Part shown: piece after piece, positions 779-12,881 of the stretch | Position numbering within the stretch: position 1 is the stretch's first letter | Layout of the letters: every line of letters starts with the position of its first letter | Virus record (IMG/VR): IMGVR_UViG_3300030102_000736 | Location: 1,077-22,839 of that record | Length of the DNA stretch: 21,763 nucleotides | Origin: a virus | Strand: one strand, 5' to 3' | The notes under the pieces: model-generated | What the model saw: only the letters and a program-made list of their open reading frames with translations | Databases searched by the model: none | What the model was told of the DNA's origin: nothing | Position numbers and translations under genes: made by a program

Positions 779-3178
779 TTAACTAAACACATATGGTGCT
801 AATAAAACTTCACATACATCAAAATCCCCTATGTCTGGTGGTATGGGTAACTTGCTTGAATCTTCTAATTGTTTTACTGCTTGCTGATATAAATCATCTA
901 ATAAATTTTTGCTATACATATCAACAAAACTCTCTTTTACATAACTTATAAATTCTTCTATATGTGCAGCAGGTGAACCAAAACAATCGTGTATTGTACA
1001 GAATTGATTTAGACCACTAGCCTTACTTTTTGTTAATGCTAAATGTACATTAGCAGCATCTAAACTATGAACGAAGTTTGCAGCAAAACTCTGAGTAGAT
1101 TTTCTTTTATCAACTTCCTTTGTATCAGTAAGAAGTGACAACTTTACAGTACTGGTATGCAGTTTCGTGCGTATTCTTTTCATATTAAAGTTGTAATATT
1201 GCTGTTTAACATAAAAATTAGATGGTGTAATCCAAGATATATTTTTATCTTCTTGACCAAAACATCTTGCAACGTCTGTTAAATATTTCATTACTGTTAT
1301 ACATTTAGGGCTGATATTATTTACACTTTTCTCTATAATTTTTGCAAGATAATGATTATGTAAAAAGCAGTCTTTATCCCAAGACAACTCCTCATCACTG
1401 CTTACAAAGTAATCTTTAACAGCACTTGCAATACCAAAGGTCTTACCACTGTACGGTATCATCATCACAGGTTTTTTTATCATTTTTCTTGTAATTAATT
1501 TGTGATGTTTATACCAATCTTCAGCTAGGCATTGTTCATCACTCAGATCACGAAGCTCTTTTATTACCTGATCTTTAACGTCTTCATACAAGTCCTTCAC
1601 CTGATCATAGTTTTTAAGATTTACTTTTGCTGCAAGATTATCATCAAGAGACATGGCTGCAAAATGTTGAAAGCCATTATTTGTACCGTCAAGTAATACA
1701 GGATGCTTGCTTACATAGCCATACCCCTGTTCCAATAGCTCGTTAAAGTCCAGACACCAGGCAAGAAACTGCCAAGGTTCTTCTGCCTTACTCCATATAC
1801 TGATATAAGATTCTGGATTGCTTGCTATCTGTCTGGCTAAAGCTTCTCCTTCTGTCTTAGACCATTCAATACGTTCTTCATAACTGTATTTACTCATACC
1901 CCATGAGTTAGCACCTGCTATACCTAACCAATTCTTTGCTTTCTCATCTGTTATTGCTGCACCTTCGGCAAATCTATGTAAAGACCTTGCTAAATCATTA
2001 CCCTGTGGGTTGAAAATACCTGATACATAATAAATTCTGCCTGTAAAATCTGCCTGTGTAACGTGCCAAAAGGGTTCTTCTGCAAACTTGGTAGCAGTAT
2101 CAAGTAACATAATACATTGATACCTTTTCATACGATCATGTGCATTTTGATCATGTCGTAATACTTCTTCTCTTCTCCACCAAGATCTTGAGTCTTCATT
2201 AGTATCAATATCATATGGCTTTGGAGTTTGTGGCAGTGGTTCAGCATCTATCAGACAACCTACTTCTATACCTCTATCCCAACAGCTTTGAGCAATATCT
2301 AGAACAGTTGTATTTATCTCCCACTTTGTTTGTTGAAGACAATTCAGTGCTGTATAAAGTGCTGTTGGTTCTCTTTTTGTTACTTCTTCATGGTAAGTAA
2401 GGTCTTTTGATTTGATTGCCTTGATATGTCTTAGTCTTTTTGTATGAAAACCACCTTCAGTGGTGCTAGTCCAATCAATCGGCTGCTCTACGCATGGTTC
2501 ATACAATGGATAACAAGCTAATCTATTTTTGCGTTGTCGTTTAATCCAATCCATAGTGCCTTGCGTAAATTCAACATATGTTTTTGTTTGTTTACCTGAT
2601 CTGACAGTAGAAAGTTTAACCATCCCAACAGCACTAATCATTATATCTATAAGCTTTAAACCAACCTTAAGTTTGTCCTCCTTTGACCACGATTTAAAAA
2701 CAAAACCTCTGTTTCTCATGTGACCCATCATCATATTGCGTCTATATCTCTGATGATTGGTATCTGATATATGTTTCTTGACGTTTGTAAAATGTTTTTT
2801 ATCTTGCTGTTCAAATAAAGTAAACCTTTGCTCATCCTCCAGCATATGTCCTACCTGTAATGCTGTCTGTGTAGCTGTTTTGTTTTGAGAAGCACCGTCA
2901 ATAACACCTTTGAAAGTAATAAAAGCTATAACATCTACATCTTTAAATTCATGTAGTTTTATTGCTGCTGTAGCTTTTACCCCTGGTGTACCTCTCCAAG
3001 CCCTGTCAAGGAACTGTTGTATTGCTTCAACAAAAGGTAGAAGACCAGCTTTAATCATGCTCCTTGCATAATCTGTTTCTGATTCTCTACCCTTGGCTAA
3101 GTTGTTGTTAATGTTGCGTTGCCGTCTGTCAAAACCACGACTCCACATCCGATCTTCTAAATCAGTTTGCTTTGTCAT
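779..3178 (-). CDS. T7-type single-subunit DNA-dependent RNA polymerase
   Basis: This 799-residue protein is slightly shorter than T7 RNA polymerase (883) and carries all the core motifs. The region around residue 378 (DFTGRIYYVSG, then FNPQGND) matches the T7 segment that contains Arg425. Motif A is LLDGTNNGFQH, with metal-binding Asp497. Motif B has Arg564, Lys568 and Tyr576 with the same spacing as T7 Arg627/Lys631/Tyr639. Motif C is IHDCFG, with His730 and Asp731. The C-terminus ends in APYVFS, similar in position to the T7 FAFA foot. It would transcribe the phage middle and late genes in the host cytoplasm. Its start overlaps the zinc-ribbon gene by 17 bases and no Shine-Dalgarno site precedes it, so translation is probably coupled. 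Confidence 0.97.
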   Translation of the reverse strand: MTKQTDLEDRMWSRGFDRRQRNINNNLAKGRESETDYARSMIKAGLLPFVEAIQQFLDRAWRGTPGVKATAAIKLHEFKDVDVIAFITFKGVIDGASQNKTATQTALQVGHMLEDEQRFTLFEQQDKKHFTNVKKHISDTNHQRYRRNMMMGHMRNRGFVFKSWSKEDKLKVGLKLIDIMISAVGMVKLSTVRSGKQTKTYVEFTQGTMDWIKRQRKNRLACYPLYEPCVEQPIDWTSTTEGGFHTKRLRHIKAIKSKDLTYHEEVTKREPTALYTALNCLQQTKWEINTTVLDIAQSCWDRGIEVGCLIDAEPLPQTPKPYDIDTNEDSRSWWRREEVLRHDQNAHDRMKRYQCIMLLDTATKFAEEPFWHVTQADFTGRIYYVSGIFNPQGNDLARSLHRFAEGAAITDEKAKNWLGIAGANSWGMSKYSYEERIEWSKTEGEALARQIASNPESYISIWSKAEEPWQFLAWCLDFNELLEQGYGYVSKHPVLLDGTNNGFQHFAAMSLDDNLAAKVNLKNYDQVKDLYEDVKDQVIKELRDLSDEQCLAEDWYKHHKLITRKMIKKPVMMIPYSGKTFGIASAVKDYFVSSDEELSWDKDCFLHNHYLAKIIEKSVNNISPKCITVMKYLTDVARCFGQEDKNISWITPSNFYVKQQYYNFNMKRIRTKLHTSTVKLSLLTDTKEVDKRKSTQSFAANFVHSLDAANVHLALTKSKASGLNQFCTIHDCFGSPAAHIEEFISYVKESFVDMYSKNLLDDLYQQAVKQLEDSSKLPIPPDIGDFDVCEVLLAPYVFS

Positions 3179-6011: not shown

Positions 6012-7733
6012 TTAATAAGAATTACTTATAAAGCCATCGGTATTATCATTAGAATTACTTATTTGAGAAGGAGTCATACCCATAGCTGTCTGAGTAATGG
6101 AATTATTCATAAGAGAACCCCAGTTATCGAGGTGAACTCTTAGTAATTCATCTTTACGGGATCTTATATTACGGTCTTCATCCTGATTCATGTACTCAGT
6201 CCAGTAGGCAACAGCACCTGATAGAGCATCAAGTATGTCATCGTGTACAAGAGAACCTCTATGTCTTGTTATACGAGACATCTGATAGAAAAGTTGAAGC
6301 TTTAATTTTCTTTCTGGTGCTTCGTTGGGGTTAGATCTATAGTCTTTTTCCACTACCTTACGGTCTATTATCAGTCTGTGAGAGTTCATTACAGGTTCCA
6401 GGGTATCTATTATGCGTAATTCTTTAGTTTTATTGTTTCTAACGTCTTTTACTTCGCAGGGATGGTACCGCATAAGGAAGGGTTTTAATAGTTCTGCGAA
6501 CATACCACCACCCATATTGGATTCTACGAGGATTGTATTTACTTTATTAGTCTTGGCTATCTTGGATAGTGTTGTTAAAACAGCGTCACTGTAACCACCG
6601 TTAAGACCCCCTGCATCAGGAACGTATAGGTTTCCATTAAGCATCTTCACAACAGCGTAACCAGTGGCATCACGACCCTTCCCAGAGGGGTCTACGAACA
6701 TAACAGAGCCTGTATATTCAATCCAATCACCAAATTGTTGGGCTGGCCTGTAGAAATGATCACCATTAAACCCTACACAGGGTAATTCTTTGATTACATA
6801 TTCTGGTGAAGAAGACCATATAACCTTTTCTGGTGCATGATCAGGATTAACACTGCTGATGATAAGGTCTGATAATTTTAGAGGGTATCTATCCTGGTCA
6901 GATAAGCTTGTATCAAGCATAAACTGTAAAGAGAACCCAGAACGACCATAAGAAGCCTCTCGTTCCATCAGATCTATTGAAGAAAACCTATCAGGGTCAA
7001 CAGGATCTTTAGGCTTTACAAGCTCTTCTGATAGCCTCTGAGCCAACTTAGGAGCTAATCTGTCTCCATAGTTATTTTTAAGGTCTGGATAACGTGCAGT
7101 CCATATACGGGTTGTATATCCACGTTCTTCCAGTGTCAGATATAAAGATTGTTCTGTCTGTGGTGTACCAAGAAAAGTAATCTTACCGTTTGGTTTGAGG
7201 ATTGCATCAAATTCTTTTACAGCTTCACTTAACTTGTCTCTCATCGGTTGAGTAAAGCTGTTATTTGGTACTTCTACGTCATCTGCTATAACCTCATCTG
7301 CTCTACTACCAGCCATCTGTCCCAGAACACCCTGAGACTTTACTGAAGGTGCGTGGTCAGCATGTGCAGGGCCAACATCAAAACTGATCTTACTGTTTCT
7401 TTGAGAGTCATCTGGTCGTAGTGGAGCAAGTACAGGCATCTCATTAATCAATCTCATAGTGAAAGTAGAGAAGTTATCTGCTCTATCCTTACTTGCAGAG
7501 ACAACAAGAAACTTTAATTGTGGATTCATCCGTAGTTTCCATACAACATAGGTAGATGTAATCCAACTCTTACCCACCCCTCTAAAGGCTTGTATGATTT
7601 TTCTACGGGGGCCATGTTGTAAATACTCAGCTATGTCTAATTGAACTGGTGTGGGGTCAGGTAGGTTAAGATGACGCCAGGTTATTATTAGAAAGTATCT
7701 AAAATCTTGTAATTTTTCTGGTAAAGGTTGCAA
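6012..7733 (-). CDS. terL: Terminase large subunit (T7 gp19-like)
   Basis: This 573-residue protein is the packaging motor and nuclease. The Walker A motif is FRGVGKSW (Lys55, Ser56). The Walker B region is EVIADDVEV (Asp151, Asp152). The coupling motif is FLGTPQTE (187-194). The C-terminal RNase H-like nuclease shows FVDPSGKGRDATG with Asp348, LVESN with Glu404, and VHDDILDAL with Asp498, Asp499 and Asp502. The length matches the family (T7 gp19, 586). The start is a TTG directly after the TAA of the small subunit, and both genes are in the same frame; the first internal ATG would delete Walker A. It would pump DNA from a concatemer into proheads and cut it at the genome ends. Confidence 0.96.
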   Translation of the reverse strand: MQPLPEKLQDFRYFLIITWRHLNLPDPTPVQLDIAEYLQHGPRRKIIQAFRGVGKSWITSTYVVWKLRMNPQLKFLVVSASKDRADNFSTFTMRLINEMPVLAPLRPDDSQRNSKISFDVGPAHADHAPSVKSQGVLGQMAGSRADEVIADDVEVPNNSFTQPMRDKLSEAVKEFDAILKPNGKITFLGTPQTEQSLYLTLEERGYTTRIWTARYPDLKNNYGDRLAPKLAQRLSEELVKPKDPVDPDRFSSIDLMEREASYGRSGFSLQFMLDTSLSDQDRYPLKLSDLIISSVNPDHAPEKVIWSSSPEYVIKELPCVGFNGDHFYRPAQQFGDWIEYTGSVMFVDPSGKGRDATGYAVVKMLNGNLYVPDAGGLNGGYSDAVLTTLSKIAKTNKVNTILVESNMGGGMFAELLKPFLMRYHPCEVKDVRNNKTKELRIIDTLEPVMNSHRLIIDRKVVEKDYRSNPNEAPERKLKLQLFYQMSRITRHRGSLVHDDILDALSGAVAYWTEYMNQDEDRNIRSRKDELLRVHLDNWGSLMNNSITQTAMGMTPSQISNSNDNTDGFISNSY

Positions 7734-7961
7734 TTATCTTTCAAGTGCAGGTATTACATCAAGGTCTGGTAGGTTTGACATAAGATCTTCCATAGGATTT
7801 TTCTCTGTTGGTATGCACTCTATGCCATTATCTTTTAATAATTGTCTAGCTACGTTAAGATCTCCTGGTTTTGCTTCACCACATTTTATCTTTCCTAATA
7901 GTTCTTGTATAAGAACAGTTTGAAGATTTTCTAATAATTCTAACTTTTTTTCTTTTCCCAT
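7734..7961 (-). CDS. terS: Terminase small subunit (T7 gp18-like)
   Basis: The product has 75 residues, close to the 89 of T7 gp18. A helical N-terminal half is followed by LNVARQLLKDNGIE, the signature of T7-type small terminase (DNA maturase A) proteins. It recognises concatemer DNA and regulates the large subunit. Its TAA abuts the TTG start of the large subunit in the same frame. Only 45 bases separate its ATG from the ATG of the divergent plus-strand gene at 8007. No Shine-Dalgarno site precedes it at normal spacing. Confidence 0.88.
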   Translation of the reverse strand: MGKEKKLELLENLQTVLIQELLGKIKCGEAKPGDLNVARQLLKDNGIECIPTEKNPMEDLMSNLPDLDVIPALER

Positions 7962-8006: not shown

Positions 8007-8228
8007 ATGCCTAATAAGCTAATCGGACAGAGATTTCAGATCAATGATCGTGTATCGAGAAAGAATTATTCTGCTATAGCTAATACATATAAAAAAAAGT
8101 ATGGAAATATTACTGAAATGATAGAAAGAAAAAATTCAGTAGGTACTAAAATGTATTACTACAAAGTGTTGTGGGAAGATAATAGATCATCTGAGCATGC
8201 CCAACATAGCCTTGATTCTGTCGAGTAA
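8007..8228 (+). CDS. Small basic beta-rich protein on the opposite strand, unknown function
   Basis: This 73-residue protein starts MPNKLIGQRFQINDRV and ends in KMYYYKVLWEDNRSSEHAQH. The pattern of a short basic strand, a GTKMYYYKVLW strand and a charged loop resembles SH3- or Tudor-like small domains, but I cannot assign a family. It is divergent from the small terminase gene with a 45-base shared upstream region, and its 3' end overlaps the minus-strand gene at 8187 by 42 bases, tail to tail. The coding signal of the opposite strand is weak over most of its length, which supports the plus strand. Confidence 0.6.
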   Translation: MPNKLIGQRFQINDRVSRKNYSAIANTYKKKYGNITEMIERKNSVGTKMYYYKVLWEDNRSSEHAQHSLDSVE

Positions 8229-8510
8229 ATTTGTTTTTTTCTTGTATTTCTTTTTTGGTTTTAAGTTATTTTTGTAATGATGAAGAGCCATTTCAGTTCT
8301 TAATAACTTAAGTTCTGTGTCAGTAATACGTTGCATGGCTGCCATAATAAGATAATCTTGCATTCGGTTTTCTTTTACCAAAGCAAATGAATATGCTTTC
8401 ATAATACTTTCTGGTAGTTGTTCCACTTCTCTACATTTCATTTCTATTTCCAATTCAACTTCAAGAGGTGGTTCACCAATAAGTATTTTAAAAAACTCTT
8501 GACTGTTCAT
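8187..8510 (-). CDS. Helical protein, 107 residues, unknown function
   Basis: The product starts MNSQEFFKILIGEPPLEVEL, continues with a long helical region (about residues 20-85) and ends in a strongly basic stretch (KPKKKYKKK). The basic tail could bind nucleic acid or a membrane surface. The ATG lies one base after the TGA of the preceding gene, so the two form an operon that is probably translated together. Its end overlaps the plus-strand gene at 8007-8228. It resembles in general character the small proteins found near the terminase genes of marine phages; no domain is recognised. Confidence 0.65.
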   Translation of the reverse strand: MNSQEFFKILIGEPPLEVELEIEMKCREVEQLPESIMKAYSFALVKENRMQDYLIMAAMQRITDTELKLLRTEMALHHYKNNLKPKKKYKKKTNLLDRIKAMLGMLR

Positions 8511-8511
8511 C

Positions 8512-8676
8512 TCAGTTCATCTTAGGGAACAACTGCTGCTCTAATATATCAACGGCTCTGTCATCAAGAGTGTTGGTAGTCTGTTTGCAGATTGCACGAA
8601 GCAAATCCACGATAAGTCGCTTTACAGCAGTTGTGGTAAAAAACTTTAGTAGTATTGGTTTTAAGAGTTTGAGCAT
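8512..8676 (-). CDS. Small helical protein, 54 residues, possibly membrane-associated
   Basis: From ATG 8676 the product reads MLKLLKPILLKFFTTTAVKR and continues with VDLLRAI, then an acidic C-terminal helix. The N-terminal part is amphipathic to hydrophobic with Lys residues at regular spacing, which suggests membrane-surface binding more than a full membrane span. A longer frame from a TTG (8709) is possible but unlikely. The next gene follows after one base. A role in lysis is possible from its position between fibre and terminase genes, but nothing shows it. Confidence 0.6.
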   Translation of the reverse strand: MLKLLKPILLKFFTTTAVKRLIVDLLRAICKQTTNTLDDRAVDILEQQLFPKMN

Positions 8677-8792: not shown

Positions 8793-9065
8793 ATGGAAGA
8801 ACAAGAAGAAAAAGAAGGTAACAGTCTGATTGCCAACGTGGTTCAGATGATTATACTTTTTTGGAGTTTGGGTGTAATTTCTTGGTCGTATTTTAATCCA
8901 AACCCTACAAGGCAAATTGATACTACCTTTGCGGCTGGATTATTGTCGGCTGTAACAGCCCAGTACGGTTTAAATATCAAAAAAAGCGGCAACGGTGACA
9001 ATAAGAAGTCAAAAGGTAAAGTTAATATAGTTGACAACAAAGACACTAACGTAGGAATCAAATGA
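8793..9065 (+). CDS. Small membrane protein, possibly holin-like
   Basis: The 90-residue product has a charged N-terminus (MEEQEEKEGN), a clear membrane segment at about residues 12-35 (ending ISWSYF), a second weaker one at about 45-63 (FAAGLLSAVTAQYG), and a very basic tail after it. Two membrane segments with a basic C-terminus and a small size fit a holin, the pore that times lysis, but also other small membrane proteins. It is the first gene of a plus-strand operon: its TGA overlaps the next ATG (ATGA). No endolysin is next to it, so the holin call is inference from size, topology and position. Confidence 0.6.
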   Translation: MEEQEEKEGNSLIANVVQMIILFWSLGVISWSYFNPNPTRQIDTTFAAGLLSAVTAQYGLNIKKSGNGDNKKSKGKVNIVDNKDTNVGIK

Positions 9066-9580
9066 AAAAACTAATTCCATTATTACTTTTTGCTTTTAGT
9101 TCTGCTTCTTACGCAGACATAACTCAAAAGTTCACAACCTCTGCACAGATTACTGTAGATATGCCATATAGCGTCACAAATAAGCTTGGAACGACTTATT
9201 CATTATCAGGTAATAACATAACTCCATCTGTAACTAGCGGAGGCTCTACAACCTCTGGAGCTATTGGTGGCTTGAATGTTGGATCGTTGACCGATTCAGT
9301 TCCAGCTTTAATACAGACTGATAAGGCTATAACAAGTGCTGGTTCTGCTTTTTCTTTAACGGAATCACTAACAGTAGGTGATGCCACACCATCTGCTATA
9401 ACACCATCATCAGGTATCTCTGCTTTACCTCATCTTGGAGGACAGACAACAGTGGGATCAGGTGGTACAGCAGGCAGTTTAGGTATGACCAGCTTATCCA
9501 GTGGAGTTCATACTTGTACAGCAGGTGGTAGTGGTACTAGCTGTATTGGACAAACAACTGTTACTATTACCATTGACTAA
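9062..9580 (+). CDS. Sec-exported protein of unknown function (first of a related pair)
   Basis: The 172-residue product starts with a textbook signal peptide, MKKLIPLLLFAFSSASYA, cleaved before DITQKF. The mature part is Ser/Thr/Gly-rich and looks beta-structured, with YSLSGNNI, GSAFSLTESL and a C-terminal TTVTITID. Two cysteines near the end (HTCTAGGSGTSC) could form a disulphide in the periplasm. Similar patterns in the next gene (YSASGNNI, GSPFSLQETI) show that the two are distant paralogues. The start overlaps the membrane-protein stop by four bases. The protein would be periplasmic, outer-membrane-bound or secreted. I do not recognise it. Confidence 0.75.
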   Translation: MKKLIPLLLFAFSSASYADITQKFTTSAQITVDMPYSVTNKLGTTYSLSGNNITPSVTSGGSTTSGAIGGLNVGSLTDSVPALIQTDKAITSAGSAFSLTESLTVGDATPSAITPSSGISALPHLGGQTTVGSGGTAGSLGMTSLSSGVHTCTAGGSGTSCIGQTTVTITID

Positions 9581-10010
9581 ATGGTTTTTGCTAATAATAA
9601 TATTAATACCTGCAAGAACTCTTGCAAATCCTGTTGTGCCTACCTTTCGTACAGGTAGTCAAACTACTAATTCTACATCCCAGAGTATTATTAATGAAAC
9701 AATTTCAAGCTATCAGTATCGAACTGGATATACATATTCTGCCAGTGGCAATAATATAAAAAGTAATGATGCAAATGGTTATATCAATCCAACACCATCA
9801 CAAGACGCTACTCAAACCATCAATAACGTCAATTTTTCATTTACTAGCCCTACATTGGAGACTGTTCCTAGATGGCAGATAGTAACAGAAGGTTCTCCAT
9901 TTTCTCTACAGGAAACAATCATAGCTCCAGGACTCGATACAATCACCAATATAAGCAGAACAATAAATACAACTACAACCGTAACTGTAGAAAGTACCTT
10001 TGGGCAGTAG
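9573..10010 (+). CDS. Sec-exported protein of unknown function (second of the pair)
   Basis: The TTG at 9573 gives MTKWFLLIIILIPARTLA followed by NPVVPTF, a complete signal peptide with a proper cleavage site; the longer frame from 9501 would put a random-looking stretch in front of it, so I choose 9573. This start overlaps the previous stop by eight bases. The mature part of about 128 residues is rich in Thr, Ser and Asn and beta-like, and repeats the YSxSGNNI and GSxFSLxE patterns of the protein before it. No cysteine pair is present. Function unknown; export to the periplasm or beyond is the solid part of the call. Confidence 0.7.
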   Translation: MTKWFLLIIILIPARTLANPVVPTFRTGSQTTNSTSQSIINETISSYQYRTGYTYSASGNNIKSNDANGYINPTPSQDATQTINNVNFSFTSPTLETVPRWQIVTEGSPFSLQETIIAPGLDTITNISRTINTTTTVTVESTFGQ

Positions 10011-10588
10011 CTCTAATGCTTTGTCCTTCAAAGGTTTTAGCTAATACAACCGTAGCAAGTCCATCTAGTAATGCACAAGGAACTGTTAATAACAATGCCA
10101 CCATGATTGCACCACAATCAACACCACAGTTCCGTATGTCACAAGGTATTGTTTGTAGTTCTCCTAGCCTTACTATTACCCCATATGTAACTGATGCGTG
10201 GAGTTTTAATAGACCTATTGAAACAATGACGAGACAAAATATATATGACGAAGATACAGGTGCTATTAAGTATGTACAGGAAACACCTAGATTTGAGAAG
10301 GATAACTATAACTTAAATTATGGAATCTCTGCACAGATCAGTATTCCATTAGGTAAAGCACCTGATTTATGTCTAAGAGCTACAGAAGTAAATATTAAAA
10401 ATCAGGAATTGCTATACCAGAAACAGGCATTGGAAATCGCACTCTTTAGACTTCGAGTATGTGGGGAGCAAGCGAAACTGGGTGTTACCTTTACTGGAAA
10501 ATATGCAGAGATCTGTGAAGGTATAAAGGTTACAGTTCCACCAAATCAAGTTATTCCTCACTCTCATTCTTTGACTTCCGAGAAGTAA
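9872..10588 (+). CDS. Exported protein of unknown function; start uncertain
   Basis: The mature part is clear: after KYLWAVALMLCPSKVLA comes NTTVASPSS and then a domain of about 170 residues with Cys pairs, SAQISIPLGKAPDLCLRA, and a helical stretch with RLRVCGEQ. The hydrophobic core of the signal lies mostly upstream of the nearest ATG (10016). The only earlier in-frame ATG is 9872, which gives an unusual 43-residue Asn/Tyr/Arg-rich leader that overlaps the preceding gene by 139 bases. Either the long leader is real or a non-standard start is used close to the signal. The 3' end overlaps the minus-strand gene at 10551 by 38 bases. The protein is the last of the plus-strand operon. I do not recognise its family. 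Confidence 0.65.
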   Translation: MADSNRRFSIFSTGNNHSSRTRYNHQYKQNNKYNYNRNCRKYLWAVALMLCPSKVLANTTVASPSSNAQGTVNNNATMIAPQSTPQFRMSQGIVCSSPSLTITPYVTDAWSFNRPIETMTRQNIYDEDTGAIKYVQETPRFEKDNYNLNYGISAQISIPLGKAPDLCLRATEVNIKNQELLYQKQALEIALFRLRVCGEQAKLGVTFTGKYAEICEGIKVTVPPNQVIPHSHSLTSEK

Positions 10589-11186
10589 GTTTCTTAATTA
10601 GATTTTTAACAATAGGTTTTACAAGGTTGAGAATAATAGGTGTAGTCGCAGCCACACTAGCAATAACAGCAGTAGAGACAATAGTGCTAGGTGTAGGTAT
10701 GTATTGGTCGATAAACGGAACGTCTTCATAAATTGTGATGCACTCTATCCCATCATCACCTCTTTTATACTCTTTCACACGTTCTGTTCGCAATTCTGAT
10801 GTAAACTCTCCTACCCTTCTATCATTTTTACCAGGACAATCAGGAATGACAGGTTCTTCTTTTTTATCTTTTGGTATTTCTGCTTTGGGTGGTTTCCCTT
10901 CTGGTAATTTATCAGGTTCTTTCTCTACAGGTGCAGCTTGTTCTGTAATTATTAATTGATCTGGTTGAAAATTTATTGGTATGAATGACGGATAAGGACA
11001 GTTACTTGTTACTCCATTGGGGTCATCTATTATAAGGTTTCTATTACCTGTATTTCTAGTGTCTCGGTGATAATATGTACAGCCTACAGTTTCTACATTA
11101 AGAACATCAAAGGAAGGTAAGACTACTGGTGGAATATAGACATCAGGTATTACTATTTCTGGAATACCTATTTCTTGTATCTCCAC
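10551..11186 (-). CDS. Proline-rich protein with C-terminal membrane anchor
   Basis: The 211-residue product opens with a repetitive Ile/Pro/Val stretch (GIPEIVIPDVYIPPVVLPSF). A cysteine-containing region follows (residues 36-65), then a charged proline/lysine linker (about 85-118), a small domain, a hydrophobic segment at about 168-190 (TAVIASVAATTPIILNLV) and a very basic tail. This suggests a long domain anchored by one C-terminal membrane span with the basic tail in the cytoplasm. It starts at a GTG directly after the stop of the small membrane protein before it, so the two are probably translated together. Function unknown; a membrane-bridging role such as a spanin is possible, but no lipobox or coiled coil supports it. 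Confidence 0.65.
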   Translation of the reverse strand: MEIQEIGIPEIVIPDVYIPPVVLPSFDVLNVETVGCTYYHRDTRNTGNRNLIIDDPNGVTSNCPYPSFIPINFQPDQLIITEQAAPVEKEPDKLPEGKPPKAEIPKDKKEEPVIPDCPGKNDRRVGEFTSELRTERVKEYKRGDDGIECITIYEDVPFIDQYIPTPSTIVSTAVIASVAATTPIILNLVKPIVKNLIKKLTSRKSKNESEE

Positions 11187-11399
11187 TTATAAAGGTAGTG
11201 ATTTACCTGTTACTTTAGGAAGTTTTTTTTGTATTTGGCCTGGTAATATTTTTTGCACCTCTTGCATAACTTCGTTCATAACTTTTGTTTTAAACTGTGG
11301 CGAAGAAAAGTATCTGTATGCAAAGTAACCACCTCCAGCCATTGACCCAGAGAGCAAAAGCGACAATAATGAGGCTACTTGGCAGATACGATTAAACAT
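11187..11399 (-). CDS. Small anchored protein, 70 residues
   Basis: The product starts MFNRICQVASLLSLLLSGSM and has one hydrophobic segment (about residues 7-30) followed by a charged helical domain with several Lys/Gln residues. It is a signal-anchor or a cleavable signal with an exported 45-residue domain. Its ATG shares the palindrome CATG with the start of a plus-strand ORF at 11398. The next gene follows without a gap. The pair 11187-11399 and 10551-11186 has the size and order of two-component spanins, but the evidence is only topological. Confidence 0.6.
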   Translation of the reverse strand: MFNRICQVASLLSLLLSGSMAGGGYFAYRYFSSPQFKTKVMNEVMQEVQKILPGQIQKKLPKVTGKSLPL

Positions 11400-11529
11400 G
11401 ATTAGATACGCTGTAATTAAAGCACTAGCATTTTCAAGTGTGCTTGTATTACTGCTTATTGTAGCCCTATCCCCTCTCTACGTCACTATGGGGATAATGA
11501 CAAGACAAATGCAAGAAAAGGTTAATTAA
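11398..11529 (+). CDS. Possible 43-residue membrane protein between two minus-strand genes
   Basis: This frame starts at the ATG of a CATG palindrome shared with the minus-strand gene ending at 11399, and stops at a TAA inside TTAATTAA shared with the stop of the minus-strand gene at 11526. The product begins MIRYAVIKALAFSSVLVLLL, has one clear membrane span (about residues 8-30) and a short polar tail (TRQMQEKVN). It fills a 126-base stretch that contains no minus-strand gene. No ribosome-binding site is seen. The membrane span and exact fit argue for it; the small size argues caution. Confidence 0.4.
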   Translation: MIRYAVIKALAFSSVLVLLLIVALSPLYVTMGIMTRQMQEKVN

Positions 11530-11708: not shown

Positions 11709-12881
11709 TTAAAGCTCCGCTTTAGCTGCCACAAAAGCAGCAGCATTGTTAGTTCTTGACCACGCACCAACATATGCAGTGCCATTAAGATTACCACTTA
11801 AGTATAAACTTATTGCCTCAGGGCTTGCATTATTATAAGCAAGCGTATCACAAGTGTCTGTAGTATTATTATAAACTTGCCAATAGTCAGTACCATTTAC
11901 AACATCAAGGCTTGGAATTGTTCTCATTTTATTTTTTAAAGTTAAAACTCCATAAAAACCACCAGTACCCCACATAGAACCAGATACTAAAGGAGCACGA
12001 GCACCAGATGTTCCATCTGAACCTTTAGCAATGACTTGGTAATAGCGATAACACCTCATAAGTTCATCACTAAATGACCTATGCTCAAAATCTGTTGCCA
12101 CGCTGCCTACTTCTAACTGAACTCCTGTAATATCAAAAGTTGAAGCTCCAGCAGTTAACCAAGTGCTTGCCATATCTGGCATAAAATTAGTATTATCACT
12201 TGCAGCCCAAGCATCTAAAGTCTTATTATTTGTGTAATTAGTTCCATAAAAAGGAACAAGAACAAGATGTAAACCTGGCTCATTATTATTGTCAAAATCT
12301 AAATTAGAATTGCCTGGAATTGTTTTCGTAATCTTTGTCCAAGCATTATTACCTGATGCAGTAAAACTAAAAGTATAGCGTTGTGCTGTACCATCATAAC
12401 TAGTTAAATAACCATAAAAAGTCTGATTAGTGCTTGCTCGAAACCAAAAACTAACTGTAATATTACTAGATGATGATTTAAAATTCCACCCACTATTGGC
12501 TATATTTTGTGCTTCCATTCTTTGTTGAAATTCAATGTAAGCATTAGTGTTTGTTGTACCTGCTCCAGATAATGCAGTTCTCGCAAAATTTTGAAATCCA
12601 TTCTGATATGGTTCGTCACTTGATGATGTAGCCTGTTGAGATTGAGTAACAGTTACTCCTGCACTTGAATATTGAATTGTCCATCTATCAAGAGTTGCAT
12701 AACCAGAAGTTGTAGATGACGTACCACGTTGAGCCACTTGCATAGCTCCGTTAATTATTAAATTACGATTACTTAGGTTATTAGTAATATTGGCAGTACA
12801 CGTTCCATCTGTATTGTTGACAGTAATCGCAGCATTACTAGCTCCTACTCCTTTTATCGAATTTACCTTGATCTCTGACAT
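11709..12881 (-). CDS. Large distal tail-fibre or adhesin protein
   Basis: The 390-residue product starts MSEIKVNSIKGVGASNAAIT, then has a short trimeric-looking region and NRNLIINGAMQVAQRGTS, a motif frequent in phage tail-fibre and receptor-binding proteins. A carbohydrate-binding-like beta-sandwich follows (about residues 60-270), rich in Trp, Tyr and Phe, and a C-terminal region without a recognised domain. It lies two bases after the second chaperone-like gene and completes the adhesion cassette. Its likely role is recognition of a surface glycan of the host. The domain call is by composition and motif, not by search. Confidence 0.75.
   Translation of the reverse strand: MSEIKVNSIKGVGASNAAITVNNTDGTCTANITNNLSNRNLIINGAMQVAQRGTSSTTSGYATLDRWTIQYSSAGVTVTQSQQATSSSDEPYQNGFQNFARTALSGAGTTNTNAYIEFQQRMEAQNIANSGWNFKSSSSNITVSFWFRASTNQTFYGYLTSYDGTAQRYTFSFTASGNNAWTKITKTIPGNSNLDFDNNNEPGLHLVLVPFYGTNYTNNKTLDAWAASDNTNFMPDMASTWLTAGASTFDITGVQLEVGSVATDFEHRSFSDELMRCYRYYQVIAKGSDGTSGARAPLVSGSMWGTGGFYGVLTLKNKMRTIPSLDVVNGTDYWQVYNNTTDTCDTLAYNNASPEAISLYLSGNLNGTAYVGAWSRTNNAAAFVAAKAEL

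Follow-up and report, generated by a model that had tools for sequence, protein, structure and literature searches.

The window analysed here, a 21,763-nucleotide stretch of viral DNA from a T7-like Prochlorococcus phage (positions 1,077 to 22,839 of IMG/VR record IMGVR_UViG_3300030102_000736) that makes up nearly all of a viral contig of 22.8 kb, carries a cassette of six genes, F1 to F6, between its tail-fibre genes and its terminase, with plus-strand F1 to F4 converging on minus-strand F5 and F6. We put at roughly 0.5 the probability that this cassette is a cyanophage-specific lysis or envelope-breaching module replacing the holin-endolysin-spanin set. This reading draws on direct observations of homology, gene content, conservation, export and membrane signals, position and, across the tested records, mutual exclusion of the cassette and recognised endolysins. 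New here is that the cassette sits at the lysis-gene site in podoviruses and excludes endolysins in those records; because it trades places with endolysin genes, the question of phage exit becomes directly testable in tractable T7-like cyanophages.

Six envelope-directed proteins and their exclusion with endolysins

F1 (8793-9065, plus strand) encodes a membrane protein of 90 amino acids (aa) with a charged C-terminal tail, which matched DUF6450 (PF20048, E 8.8e-9) and phrog_21865, phrog_721 and phrog_2714. It has a clear hydrophobic segment and a second, weaker one; at a hydropathy of 1.6 one membrane segment was found, and a value of 1.3 gave two in 38 of 72 homologues. T4-GC218 and P-SSP7 gp43 are homologues, the latter annotated with two transmembrane regions. 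Small size, one to three transmembrane helices and a charged tail, the criteria for a holin, were all found in F1, and its topology appears holin-like; Pfam and PHROG searches matched it to no holin family, solely to DUF6450 and PHROGs without assigned function. The other plus-strand products are exported proteins: F2 (9062-9580), beta-rich and 172 aa long (phrog_564, E 2.5e-35, the family also matched by its homologue T4-GC237); F3 (9573-10010), 145 aa long with a TTG start and a conserved C-terminal F-x-Q (DUF6322, PF19847, E 2e-22; phrog_650; homologues T4-GC236 and P-SSP7 gp44); and F4 (9872-10588), with an ATG inside F3 and a conserved Cys (phrog_848, E 2e-58, and also phrog_1755; homologues T4-GC235 and P-SSP7 gp45). 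On the minus strand, F5 (10551-11186) encodes a proline-rich protein of 211 aa (phrog_570, E 5e-33; homologue T4-GC234) with four conserved Cys (exactly four in 69 of 79 homologues) and a C-terminal membrane segment followed by a basic tail, and F6 (11187-11399) encodes 70 aa with an N-terminal membrane anchor (phrog_568, E 1.3e-9; T4-GC414).

Every one of the six genes thus has a PHROG match (E 1e-9 to 1e-58), and the order F1+F2+F3+F4+F5-F6- was seen again in 52 IMG/VR-type loci, most other loci being cut versions of it. These matches and the recurrent order indicate that the six genes are real. The preliminary description of this DNA had proposed a two-strand module between the fibre genes and the terminase of a T7-like phage, in which a membrane protein and three exported proteins face an anchored pair, and the flanking families, gene coordinates and PHROG matches bear this out. 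It had counted at least five envelope-directed products, and membrane or export features are present in all six; its remark that no lysis protein was recognisable also held, since the six proteins matched no holin, endolysin, spanin or peptidoglycan hydrolase family in Pfam and PHROG. A further 43-aa open reading frame (ORF) at the right end of the described interval (11398-11529, plus strand) has no convincing family (best E 0.05) and is unsupported.

F3 and F4 overlap in different frames by 139 bases (9872-10010). The F4 start precedes the F3 stop by 138 bases in window-type phages, ~165 in cyanomyoviruses and 55 in MPP-C phages; its position is conserved inside each phage group, and a start codon near the F3 stop was found in just 42 of 228 loci. 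The extra N-terminus of F4 consists of a long basic stretch and then a signal-peptide-like stretch. A programmed F3-F4 frameshift was considered and set aside in favour of the nested ATG, no slippery site being seen by eye. F4 and F5 share 38 bases at their 3' ends, an arrangement common in relatives.

In T7, the lysis genes include the holin gene 17.5 and the spanin genes 18.5 and 18.7. In the cassette-less phages P60 and S-CBP1, the endolysin (gp37) and the lysozyme, respectively, are encoded between the tail fibre and the small terminase, which is the site of the cassette; the S-B28 endolysin is situated elsewhere in its genome. Among 12 complete records, the F4 profile was present in P-SSP7, P-SCSP2, KBS-P-1A, S28-C3, MED4-117, P-HS2, P-SSM4 and S-SM1 and absent from P60, S-CBP1, Syn5 and S-B28. 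Endolysins were searched with direct protein queries, because the PF00182 profile misses even the P60 lysozyme. Relatives of the P60-type endolysin were found in P60 and S-B28 only and the S-CBP1-type lysozyme in S-CBP1 only; Amidase_2 matched in none of the 12, and the sole Phage_lysozyme match was a 925-aa ORF of S-SM1, by its size a baseplate hub. Eight records therefore carry the cassette without the tested endolysins, three an endolysin without the cassette, one neither and none both.

Outside these records, the endolysin-bearing phages S-CBP3, S-CBP4, S-CBP2, S-CBP42, DSL-LC07, S-SRP01, WH11-B and 7B11-B are not among the F4 matches listed, and none of 18 podoviruses with an F4 of at least 57% identity is among the endolysin matches listed. 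Pfam scans revealed no peptidoglycan hydrolase among the best 25 of 40 families in the P-SCSP2 proteome, nor in the unannotated proteins of P-SSP7 and the window. The endolysin-bearing cyanomyovirus S-N03 has an F1 homologue (E 1.9e-13) and no F2 to F7 (F7 being T4-GC219) in two regions scanned, which fits the expectation for a holin-like F1. A 2018 survey lists many Prochlorococcus and Synechococcus phages, cassette carriers included, as spanin-less (among them P-HM1, P-HM2, P-SSM2, P-SSM4 and S-SM1); it raises the possibility of a fragile outer membrane in the host and asks whether phages could cross it in some other way (PMC6139136). P60 and Syn5 are also on this list (PMC6139136), so being listed there is not by itself specific to cassette carriers.

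The P60 and S-CBP1 endolysins have small one-helix neighbours, P60 gp38 and S-CBP1_0041, whose tails are coiled-coil-like, and Syn5 gp47 and S-B28 gp06 look to be of the same kind. Such small proteins at the lysis site of cassette-less cyanopodoviruses, with an N-terminal membrane helix and a coiled-coil-like tail (L291 6393-6653, L292 7075-7308, L293 6062-6325 and L294 3184-3429), are likely unannotated holin or spanin-type proteins.

Layouts and probable exchange among cyanophages

In tblastn searches, 381 to 453 phage records contained F4 and 392 contained F2; almost all were cyanophages, and the cassette occurs in cyanophages of three tail types only (podo-, sipho- and myoviruses). When 252 loci were scored with profiles, four layouts dominated. 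In the window type, F1+F2+F3+F4+ face F5-F6-, as in T7-terminase podoviruses and the Prochlorococcus siphoviruses MED4-117 and P-HS2; in MPP-C podoviruses, F1+F3+F4+ face a phrog_9426 protein; in P-SSP7 and S-RIP2-like phages, phrog_9426, F1, F3 and F4 lie on one strand before the small terminase; and in cyanomyoviruses, F2+F3+F4+ face F5-F7-F6-F1- between hsp20 and regA. No match to F7 was found in the window or in the MED4-117, P-HS2 and P-SCSP2 loci. The phrog_9426 proteins resemble F5 in having a proline-rich front and a C-terminal membrane segment, and F5 weakly matches phrog_9426 (E 0.019), so we took them to have the same role. From these layouts, the compact set included, the core consists of F1, F3, F4 and an F5-type protein, with F2, F6 and F7 as additions. 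The cassette is retained in the smallest cyanopodovirus genomes. The two-strand layout, which the preliminary description had treated as a key feature, proves incidental, the compact set of P-SSP7 and S-RIP2-like phages lying on one strand.

Read along the minus strand, the window carries tail and fibre genes (one tail-fibre gene at 11709-12881), the small terminase subunit (7734-7961; phrog_891, E 3e-11), the T7-like large subunit (6012-7733; phrog_38) and then a single-subunit phage RNA polymerase (779-3178), an order which indicates that the phage is T7-like and that the window spans the genome end. The large subunit is nearest that of P-SCSP2, which is also the closest phage to the terminase side as a whole (74.7% across three pieces); P-SCSP2 is a podovirus of Prochlorococcus MED4 from the MPP-C clade (described in PMC9860041). 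In the F3 and F4 trees, whose rooting and support were checked only loosely, the window grouped with siphoviruses, away from the MPP-C podoviruses with the same terminase, suggesting that phages probably swapped the module while its genomic site stayed the same.

A 54-aa amphipathic protein of phrog_2738 adjoins the cassette (8512-8676, minus strand). It was also observed in Syn5 (gp48), a phage without the cassette, and in S-N03, with no F2 to F6 seen nearby in either, and is probably separate from the cassette. By eye, its tail is like that of S-CBP1_0039, and it is possibly a small lysis or packaging partner. To its left, a 107-aa minus-strand protein (8187-8510) of no known family resembles a protein in the same place in another locus (L254, 6269-6565). 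Promoter and terminator scans gave no excess over shuffled sequences.

Proposed mechanism and rival explanations

We infer the mechanism as a whole from these features. F1 would act in the inner membrane, given its holin-like topology, and F5, proline-rich with a C-terminal anchor, together with F6 and F7 where present, would also lie there and reach across the periplasm. Exported F2 and F3, with long beta strands, and F4, with strands and a long helix, would be destined for the outer membrane, there linking to F5 or forming pores, and late in infection the proteins would together break through the envelope or bridge it. In the AlphaFold2 models, F3 (predicted local distance difference test score, pLDDT, 75) has two strands of 24-25 residues and a small sheet, and F4 (pLDDT 60) has strands and then a 39-residue helix. 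The outer membrane is also weakly suggested by family matches: homologues in cyanobacterial chromosomes matched Phage_OMP (F2, E 0.0019, below cut-off) and OEP (F4, E 0.0032, 17.7 bits against a cut-off of 22), and KBS-P-1A F4 matched OEP at E 0.09; OEP was above cut-off in none of 87 members tested. An OEP or TolC-like identity for F4 was not adopted and is suggestive only, with Pfam scores below cut-off and a low-confidence model without a TolC fold match. Taken further, the cassette would be a lysis system without recognisable endolysin or spanin, common to three cyanophage tail types, exchanged as a module, and opening or bridging the outer membrane at the same site; this fuller version we offer tentatively.

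Several points weigh against a lysis role. No cassette member matches a lysis family. The 12 records are few and related, so the p-value of Fisher's test for exclusion (0.018, and 0.14 for the eight podoviruses alone) is a guide only, and endolysins of unrecognised type would escape the searches. Syn5 has neither cassette nor endolysin, the cyanomyovirus S-PM2 lacks the cluster (PMC3037559), and the cyanomyovirus cassette is placed among replication genes, not late genes. Comparison of the F3 and F4 models with the PDB by Foldseek and VIA-align gave nothing firm (no E below 0.001, Z at most 4.5), and profiles of both matched no PDB sequence; the F3 list was headed by long-stranded pore stems (lysenin, CDTb and aerolysin) and the phi29 knob, only a sign of the long strands predicted in the model. 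At E below 0.005, the matches from a viral structure library were all cyanophage proteins or proteins without a name. Finally, phrog_848 was matched in 11 of 400 genomes of the cyanobacterial family of single amplified genome G001, some via phage contigs, and chromosomal F2-F3-F4 with shared surroundings occurred in 3 of 42 genomes of one genus (L278 4311-6830, L279 150-2837 and L280 302-2064); in two of them a phrog_9426-like gene converges on the set at the edge of the contig. One copy has 53% G+C against 67% nearby, which fits acquired DNA. The chromosomal copies temper the lysis reading, yet they also fit a captured phage cassette, or the source of it. Distant F4 relatives were noted in other cyanobacterial genomes (L282 3940-6640 and L283 5220-6392) amid several exported proteins of no known kind, with no phage genes recognised beside them.

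The earlier proposal of a lysis or envelope system in the place of the T7 lysis genes gains support from the endolysin cassettes at the same site and from the exclusion in tested records, and surface remodelling or superinfection exclusion still stands as its main rival. Here, the exported proteins would coat or alter the outer membrane and F1, F5 and F6 would block inner-membrane entry, keeping rival phages out. Several exported and membrane proteins without an enzyme motif, the limitation to cyanophages of three tail types and the cyanomyovirus location among replication genes suit this explanation; in MPP-C and window-type phages the operon is inverted, which allows it a timing of its own, and the chromosomal copies could shield the host. 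It leaves unexplained that endolysin cassettes are swapped and excluded at one site and how these phages lyse, and we regard it as rather unlikely. A channel in the outer membrane, partnered by a proline-rich inner-membrane protein and altering nutrient or solute uptake during infection, is more doubtful still: the S-SM1 cassette lies near pstS and phoA and the chromosomal homologues weakly match Phage_OMP and OEP, but those matches are below curated cut-offs, no such chain was convincingly matched when the A3 alignment profile was searched against the PDB, and P-SCSP2 carries the cassette in an annotation without phosphate genes. Virion-associated proteins acting at entry would explain why the cassette adjoins tail-fibre genes in podo- and siphoviruses; this is very improbable, as virions assemble in the cytoplasm and signal peptides export F2 to F4 from it, and the myovirus cassette lies among replication genes.

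A mobile or plasmid-stability cassette, as published for cyanomyoviruses (PMC3037559, PMC9602691), agrees with the movement of modules (window F3 and F4 siphovirus-like, terminase MPP-C-like) and is the least credible alternative, since the cassette has no recombinase, F6 is a 70-aa membrane-anchored peptide that matched no Pfam family, hence no plasmid-stability or antitoxin domain, and mobility leaves six envelope-directed products unexplained. The "plasmid stability" name of F6 is annotation only. The label is common in cyanophage annotations (the window at 11187-11399; L006 at 8260-8475), and published hypotheses rest on it. Later pseudolysogeny ideas were built on this annotation (PMC9602691), on which the present findings cast doubt.

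Comparison with known systems

Sullivan et al. reported this set of genes from cyanomyoviruses in 2010 and assigned it no function (PMC3037559), its five-gene "plasmid stability" form consisting of T4-GC218, 219, 234, 235 and 237; earlier proposals concerned mobility and no other function (PMC3037559). P-SSM4 and S-SM1 proteins matched the same PHROGs, and GenBank labels those of P-SSM4 T4-GC218, 237, 236, 235, 234 and 414. Judged by these matches, all six window genes are homologues of T4-GC218, 234, 235, 236, 237 and 414, so the gene set is known already and the "new system" of the preliminary description was too strong a term. No papers were found on the DUF numbers, and the text of published transcriptome work offered no data on individual genes of the cluster. 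The window and the cyanomyovirus cluster share homologous proteins, adjacent genes and, in most, a convergent two-strand order. In the window, however, F1 heads the plus operon, whereas it ends the minus operon in cyanomyoviruses; T4-GC219 (F7) is missing; and the carrier is a T7-like phage with the cassette in the place of lysis genes.

The sets of P-SSP7 (gp42-gp45), S-RIP2 and KBS-P-1A likewise hold an F5-type protein, F1, F3 and F4 between the tail fibre and the small terminase. They differ from the window in lying on one strand, in their shorter F4 and in the absence of F2 and F6, and their F5-type protein lacks the Cys domain of window F5. Like two-component or unimolecular phage spanins, F5 combines a membrane anchor with a proline-rich stretch that could span the periplasm, but F2 to F5 showed no lipobox, the outer-membrane lipoprotein signal, by eye. 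With the lysis genes of T7 and the endolysin cassettes of P60 and S-CBP1, the window cassette has in common its genome position and its small membrane proteins; it differs in having neither an endolysin nor any sequence relation to them, and carries exported beta proteins in their place.

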